Positions 22,057-22,406 of a stretch of 64,000 nt of DNA are shown here, one piece after another. The stretch's first letter is position 1. Each line of letters opens with the position of its first letter. This DNA comes from an uncultured Bacilli bacterium (lineage in GTDB: Bacteria > Bacillota_I > Bacilli_A > RF39 > UBA660). Made by a program: the position numbers and the translations under genes. The DNA is taken from NCBI GenBank assembly GCA_947632085.1, contig CANRNY010000004.1:1-64000 (forward strand). The letters are read 5' to 3'. The notes below the pieces were generated by a model, which saw nothing but the letters and a program-made list of their open reading frames with translations, was not told the DNA's origin and searched no databases.

Positions 22057-22122
22057 TACTTTGTATCAATTTGTAACTAAGATATTGACATAGAAAGTAC
22101 TTTGTATTAAAATGTAACTATG
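22057..22122 (+). promoter_or_regulatory. promoter with two near-identical 23-bp operator boxes (NrtR operon)
   Basis: Box A (22057-22079) and box B (22098-22120), both of the form TACTTTGTATyAAwwTGTAACTA, match at 20 of 23 positions and start 41 bp apart. A promoter, TTGACA (22085-22090), 17-bp spacer, TAAAAT (22108-22113), lies so that box A is just upstream of the -35 and box B covers the -10. This is the layout of an autoregulated repressor operon; the regulator encoded second in the operon is the obvious candidate to bind it. Confidence 0.7.
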
Positions 22123-22136
22123 TAAGGAGGAATTAC

Positions 22137-22406
22137 ATGAGAGTTTTACAAGAAGGACCAGGTTGGTCAATTAAACAAAAATGTACTGGCTATGGTAATG
22201 GAGGCGGAGGTTGTGGCGCTTTACTAGAAGTTGAAAGAGGAGATATATATTTAACTAGTTCTACTGATTTATCTGGTGAAACTGATTACTACTATACTTT
22301 TAGATGTCCATGTTGTGATATTGAAACTGATGTTCCTTCTACTGACATCCAAGCTATAATTAAAAGAAATTTATTTGAACAAAAAAGAATGAGACTAAGT
22401 AGGTGA
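22137..22406 (+). CDS. small zinc-ribbon-like protein
   Basis: 89 residues. Four cysteines are placed like two zinc knuckles (C16, C26 and C57, C59/C60, in KCTGYGNGGGGCG and FRCPCCD), with a Gly-rich loop and a basic C-terminus. No family is recognised beyond a generic metal-binding ribbon. First gene of the operon behind the two operator boxes, with a strong GTAAGGAGG site. Followed after three bases by the NrtR-like gene. Confidence 0.65.
   Translation: MRVLQEGPGWSIKQKCTGYGNGGGGCGALLEVERGDIYLTSSTDLSGETDYYYTFRCPCCDIETDVPSTDIQAIIKRNLFEQKRMRLSR

Follow-up and report, generated by a model that had tools for sequence, protein, structure and literature searches.

Paired 25-bp dyads as probable operators of a distinct NrtR-family regulator at its own operon in an uncultured Bacilli bacterium

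NrtR and AraR are the closest described systems to the locus analysed here. A 27-bp site was used to crystallise SoNrtR, and a dimer of BtAraR, the AraR of Bacteroides, covers 25 bp (PMC4666351). In SoNrtR, R98 contacts ADP-ribose and N43 and K76 touch the ADP phosphates; in the arabinose sensor AraR, the equivalent of R98 is a glycine (Gly89) (PMC4666351). Two semipalindromic sites stand in tandem ahead of the BtAraR operon, and the base-contacting residues of the BtAraR recognition helix are K179, R180, N181, and K184 (PMC4666351). NrtR sites have been described as GTTTTCGA-N7-TCGAAAAC in Mycobacterium and as ATA-N-TTTA-N3-TAAAA-N2-ATA in Streptococcus (PMC6800001).

The window is the whole stretch of 64,000 nucleotides that was analysed, part of contig C4 in the 1.7-Mb draft genome of an uncultured Bacilli bacterium. 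A sequence-only reading of it had pointed out two near-identical 23-bp boxes in the promoter of an NrtR-like operon, the second lying over the -10. By direct reading, the boxes at 22057-22079 (TACTTTGTATCAATTTGTAACTA) and 22098-22120 (TACTTTGTATTAAAATGTAACTA) are indeed identical at 20 of 23 positions, with three differences. When the window was searched with the IUPAC union of both boxes at up to three mismatches, the only two matches were the boxes themselves, and dinucleotide shuffles of the window gave a mean of 0.00 and a maximum of 0 matches, so no chance copies are expected. A promoter scan identified a near-consensus promoter (11/12) with a 17-nt spacer, and since it places TAAAAT at 22108-22113, box 2 does cover the -10. 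The two matching copies thus stood, but the limits of 23 bp were too short, as the unit conserved in 14 orthologous promoters is a 25-bp dyad. Three closely spaced genes lie 3' of the promoter. The features are:

22057..22083, plus strand: candidate operator dyad 1 (O1), TACTTTGTATCAATTTGTAACTAAGAT, 27 bp with flanking bases, directly 5' of the -35
22058-22082, plus strand: core of O1, ACTTTGTA-TCAATTTGT-AACTAAGA, 25 bp
22085..22090, plus strand: -35 hexamer TTGACA (promoter scan)
22098..22124, plus strand: candidate operator dyad 2 (O2), TACTTTGTATTAAAATGTAACTATGTA, over the end of the spacer, the -10, and the expected start site
22099-22123, plus strand: core of O2, ACTTTGTA-TTAAAATGT-AACTATGT, 25 bp
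22108..22113, plus strand: -10 hexamer TAAAAT, within O2 (promoter scan)
22124..22130, plus strand: putative ribosome-binding site AAGGAGG of the first gene, by sequence and position
22137..22406, plus strand: first gene of the operon, 89-aa Cys-rich protein with invariant C16, C26, and C57-P-x-C60
22410..23183, plus strand: nrtR-like regulator, degenerate Nudix domain and NrtR winged helix
23185..23712, plus strand: Nudix protein with intact Nudix box (GX5EX7RELNEELGL; Pfam NUDIX, E 3.5e-21)

The operon had been read as encoding a degenerate-Nudix winged-helix regulator and an intact Nudix enzyme, and the domain searches agree. The regulator matched Pfam NUDIX (E 1.9e-11, residues 36-127) and NrtR_WHD (E 4.8e-14, residues 196-251), both over the cut-off. 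Its Nudix motif is degenerate (G-x5-E-x7-R-I-L-K-K-E-T-G-L versus REUxEExGU), and two catalytic glutamates are lost (RILKKE, versus RELNEE in the Nudix protein). An N-terminal Nudix-like domain with a degenerate motif, followed by a C-terminal NrtR winged helix, places the regulator in the NrtR family. Its nearest solved relatives are BtAraR (5bs6), an Enterococcus faecalis protein (2fml), and SoNrtR (3gz5/3gz6), and its AlphaFold model (mean pLDDT 83) matched the same PDB entries, including the SoNrtR-DNA complex 3gz6. Its recognition helix reads N223-S224-A225-F226-R227-R228.

Within the family, the regulator does not fit the AraR branch, and its operon does not fit the NAD role of NrtR proper. 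It scored just over the cut-off of the AraR_C model (24.6 versus 23.8). However, the AraR branch is marked by an arabinose pocket and a closed nucleotide cleft with glycine at the R98 position, which in the regulator is R96, an arginine invariant in the clade that carries the boxes (the box clade). With the NCBIfam equivalog for NrtR proper (NF050029) it scored 124 against a cut-off of 400, and no NAD gene, as expected for NrtR proper, was found in any boxed operon, in the window or among the orthologs. Among the residues of SoNrtR that bind ADP-ribose (R41, N43, K76, and R98), R41 and R98 are kept, but N43 is replaced by Lys and K76 by Glu. The conserved equivalent of R98 argues for a nucleotide ligand, and since the equivalents of N43 and K76 are changed, this ligand may not be ADP-ribose.

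The first gene product has no Pfam or NCBIfam family and only a weak match to phrog_2834, a family of unknown function. Its four cysteines are invariant in 11 aligned relatives, and it is likely to be a zinc ribbon; a small beta fold is predicted, for which no PDB match was found at E<=0.001. Small Cys-rich proteins recur in boxed operons, singly or up to three in tandem (window 22137-22406; L087:2211-2957; the L089 operon), and a diverged relative lies about 2 kb from NrtR and NAD genes in G036 (L073:8026-8283). The third gene product is YfcD/DR0079/IPP-isomerase-like, judging from its NCBIfam and PDB relatives.

NrtR orthologs (79-53% identical) were gathered by protein search and box search, and their upstream sequences were compared. 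The 14 orthologous promoters share the dyad ACTTWGTA-N9-WAMWAAGT, 25 bp long or 27 bp counting the flanking bases, with the half-site ACTTWGTA and a spacing of N9. The boxes are two copies of this dyad, whose starts are 41 bp apart in the window and 40-42 bp apart in all lineages. Conservation of the box upstream of orthologous operons had been set in advance as the test on which the proposal could fail; both boxes and a TTGA-type -35 (TTGACA, TTGACT, TTGATA, or TTGATT) were present in the same order, and in the same place relative to the -35 and -10, in every orthologous operon found. The -10 TAAAAT is unchanged in 13 promoters and is TAAACT in that of G465. Across the left and right half-sites of box 1 and the left half-site of box 2, 42 in all, positions 2, 3, 4, and 7 never vary. 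Box 1 is symmetric about a single centre, with 69% of pairs complementary versus about 30% at other centres, and none of 1000 column permutations was as high. The simple direct-repeat reading of the boxes was set aside, since a dyad accounts better for box 1. Box 2 is an imperfect dyad because its right half-site is ACATAGTT, and in the same analysis its strict palindromy was not significant by itself. Box 2 has a mean of 1.81 bits per column and box 1 of 1.42, compared with 0.74 in the spacer between the -35 and box 2. The spacer drifts while box 1 is conserved, and thus the spacer is an internal control for selection on box 1; part of the conservation of O2 may be promoter or start-site constraint.

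Both O1 and O2 are of the kind expected for the NrtR family, whose sites are palindromic, about 21-27 bp long, and located at the regulator's own operon. Since 25 bp, or 27 bp with flanks, matches the NrtR-family footprint, we counted the length in favour of NrtR binding. The sequence itself is another matter: as the sequence-only reading had noticed, the box is unlike known NrtR sites, and ACTTWGTA-N9 differs from both the Mycobacterium and the Streptococcus sites (PMC6800001). A search of the open-access literature found no mention of the dyad, which may have been published elsewhere. Taken together, the sequence comparison makes it very probable that a regulator of known type acts here through a new operator.

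A profile search of 386 genomes of the same family gave eight NrtR scores at 430-457 bits, followed after a gap by about 105 genomes scoring no more than 355 bits. Three of the lower scorers (G184, G328, and G380) encode an NrtR fused to a Nudix protein and group with the eight in the tree (100/99). At up to one mismatch, the genomes with the box were exactly the 11 (eight genera) whose NrtR falls in the box clade; the remaining 375, about 105 of which have a paralogous NrtR, had none. Family-search matches at three mismatches (L069, L071, L078, L081, and L082) were inspected; neither a dyad upstream nor an operon accompanied them, and we regard them as chance matches. Thirteen promoters have both dyads in the same arrangement. 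G465, whose promoter is the 14th, has a twelfth NrtR that was found by protein only (388.6 bits) and carries the helix NSAFRR. Since some rows of the tree were chosen for carrying the box, the presence of both boxes in G465 is a stronger test.

The operon contents vary. G086 has an apt-like phosphoribosyltransferase gene and nrtR, and lacks the Cys-rich and Nudix genes; G190 has two Cys-rich genes, apt-like, nrtR, and Nudix genes; in G191, nrtR is accompanied by three Cys-rich genes and a 131-aa gene, and the Nudix gene is lacking; and G465 has only nrtR and an unrelated 222-aa gene. The apt-like gene is in the G086 and G190 operons only, and nrtR is therefore the sole constant gene. Because the box and the regulator gene are physically linked, co-occurrence alone is no proof of binding, and shared inheritance explains part of it. 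Several arguments reach beyond linkage: operon contents vary, the recognition helix has changed, paralog promoters lack the dyad, a sister lineage has a variant dyad, and the footprint length agrees.

The family paralogs (about 105 genomes; in the window genome, the second NrtR at G000:C24:11169-11927) are 47-50% identical to the window regulator and have the same domains, but their recognition helix reads DPAFRR where the box clade has NSAFRR, so that N223-S224 are D-P in the paralogs. BtAraR K179, R180, N181, and K184 align with N223, S224, A225, and R228, the first two of which differ between the clades. In 51 promoters of DPAFRR paralogs the dyad score was 10.78 versus 10.83 for shuffles (of 16), and box promoters score 13-16. 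Many paralog promoters (e.g. L038, L039, L040, and L044) share TGTTATAATCA beside the start, which is perhaps an extended -10 plus that paralog's own site. The sole exception among paralog promoters is L051, from a Clostridia MAG. This sister of the box clade has the DPAFRR helix and two 25-bp dyads ACTTWTTA-N9-TAAWAAGT (L051:3837-3901), spaced 41 bp around TTGACA and placed as in the box promoters; it is a possible intermediate in operator specificity. The change from DPAFRR to NSAFRR beside a new half-site would be a compact case of a Nudix-type repressor changing specificity after duplication.

The rival that survives best, although we consider it unlikely, is that another transcription factor, for instance the genome's other NrtR or a regulator unrelated to it, binds the boxes and controls the operon. 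Linked conservation cannot name the binding protein, and a second NrtR is present. However, the 375 genomes that lack the box include about 105 with the paralog, the paralog promoters lack the dyad and often have TGTTATAATCA instead, nrtR alone is constant in the boxed operons, and the dyad length fits the NrtR-family footprint. Boxes that travel solely with one NrtR branch are therefore very probably the own-operon switch of that repressor.

In our preferred reading, which we hold to be very likely, the boxes are paired operators of the co-encoded NrtR-family protein, whose autorepression would be relieved by an ADP-ribose-type nucleotide. The comparison supports the regulator-site pair proposed earlier and shows the candidate operator's anatomy, its association with one NrtR clade, and a recognition helix specific to that clade; DNA binding, repression, dimer state, and ligand class would follow the family (PMC4666351, PMC6800001). 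Each 25-bp dyad would be bound by one dimer, whose winged helices would contact the ACTTWGTA half-sites, one dimer just 5' of the -35 (O1) and another across the spacer, -10, and start site (O2), the two lying on nearly the same DNA face (41 bp, about 3.9 turns). RNA polymerase would be shut out, and the operon including nrtR would be repressed. When an ADP-ribose-type small nucleotide occupies the inactive Nudix domain, the dimer would release the DNA, and the Nudix enzyme and the partner protein would be made. The enzyme would probably consume that nucleotide or a relative and thereby close a feedback loop.

A somewhat less likely rival than another factor would have the regulator work as an activator or anti-activator from box 1 and repress through a second site, box 2. 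Box 1 ends directly 5' of the -35, which is a frequent position of class II activators. Against this, box 2 over the -10 is in a repressor position, activation should be needless because the promoter is near consensus (11/12), and the characterised NrtR and AraR proteins cited here are repressors (PMC4666351, PMC6800001). That the boxes are only a conserved promoter, a strong core plus a UP-like upstream element with no regulator, is very improbable: box 2 includes the -10 and is nearly invariant and the -35 is conserved, but box 1 is not part of the core promoter, preserves ACTT...AAGT across 14 promoters next to a drifting spacer, has a symmetry above all 1000 column permutations, and is missing from other promoters of the same genomes.

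The proposed switch appears to serve its own operon. A genome-wide box search had been suggested to reveal a regulon of NAD, nucleotide, or sugar genes, but none was found beyond the operon itself: at up to three mismatches, no further intergenic box occurred among the matches examined in the window genome. The two closest extra matches (C5:18344 and C9:36868) are inside genes (amidase-like and mutL). In a degenerate dyad search of 12 boxed genomes, counts were at or below the reversed-pattern control, and a wider regulon was rejected. In G041, G086, and G249 the paralogous NrtR adjoins genes that we take, by recognition of their sequences, to be nadD or NAD kinase-like, and thus the paralog is probably the NAD regulator. 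Since the boxed operons have no NAD gene and the orthologs of the second NrtR adjoin such genes, the window NrtR is probably not an NAD regulator.

The fusions are Nudix-wHTH-Nudix proteins of 427-436 aa in G184, G328, and G380 (L091:3707-4990, minus strand; L092:1239-2522; L088:1826-3136). A regulator joined to its enzyme in three genomes fits the feedback loop, and therefore the enzyme probably acts on the regulator's own ligand. Adenine-nucleotide clearing or salvage, from the fusion and the recurring apt-like gene, is a guess, as is what we propose for the enzyme substrate and for the Cys-rich protein. In all three genomes the fusion-type cassette is preceded by an antirepressor-like gene (MNEIKEYTEK...), which suggests a variable or mobile region. 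A phage origin was not supported: the 89-aa protein has no phage match, NrtR relatives in phages are 26-40% identical, and IMG/VR contained no relative and no box. A defence system was also rejected, as PADLOC gave just weak matches to a generic Nudix model.

Two genomes appear to have lost nrtR from its place. In G350, of the genus of G190, the apt-like gene is in place (L090, C1:83183), but nrtR is absent there and the upstream dyad and -35 are gone. In G213, of the genus of G465, there is no nrtR beside whiA (L096, C1:65411); the -35 of the leftover promoter is damaged to CTGACT and its half-sites to ACTTTGAA and ACTTTATA. These decayed boxes fit relaxed selection after regulator loss, as single cases in drafts that may miss genes.

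More tentatively, and with the odds rather against it, the locus may be a self-contained sensor-eraser cassette, in which a separate NrtR clade, equipped with an operator of its own, would sense a nucleotide other than the usual NAD-derived signal and switch on, or be fused to, a Nudix enzyme that destroys it, with the Cys-rich protein and adenine phosphoribosyltransferase as accessories, and the cassette would pass between genomes or disappear from them independently of NAD genes. The locus offers an operator, a regulator, and a candidate enzyme set for an NrtR branch without a tie to NAD genes; the bacterial family concerned has been met almost solely in metagenomes.

Compared with known systems, the window regulator resembles NrtR (SoNrtR 3gz5/3gz6/3gz8; MsNrtR of M. 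smegmatis; S. suis NrtR) in its domain order, degenerate Nudix motif, and winged helix. It shares with the ADP-ribose-responsive NrtR proteins a probable autoregulation, the site size, and the Arg equivalent to SoNrtR R98, but differs from them in that its operon has no NAD-synthesis gene and two phosphate-contacting residues are changed. The nearest solved structure is AraR of Bacteroides (BtAraR, BT0354; PDB 5bs6, 5dd4, and 5deq), which likewise has two tandem sites and a 25-bp dimer coverage. BtAraR, however, binds L-arabinose, belongs to an arabinose operon, and has the helix DKRNFRK, whereas the window regulator has Arg 96 and NSAFRR. The best relatives of the third gene product are YfcD, DR0079, and type I IPP isomerase-like proteins (PDB 2fkb and 1q27), from which it differs in sitting with, or being fused to, an NrtR-type regulator.
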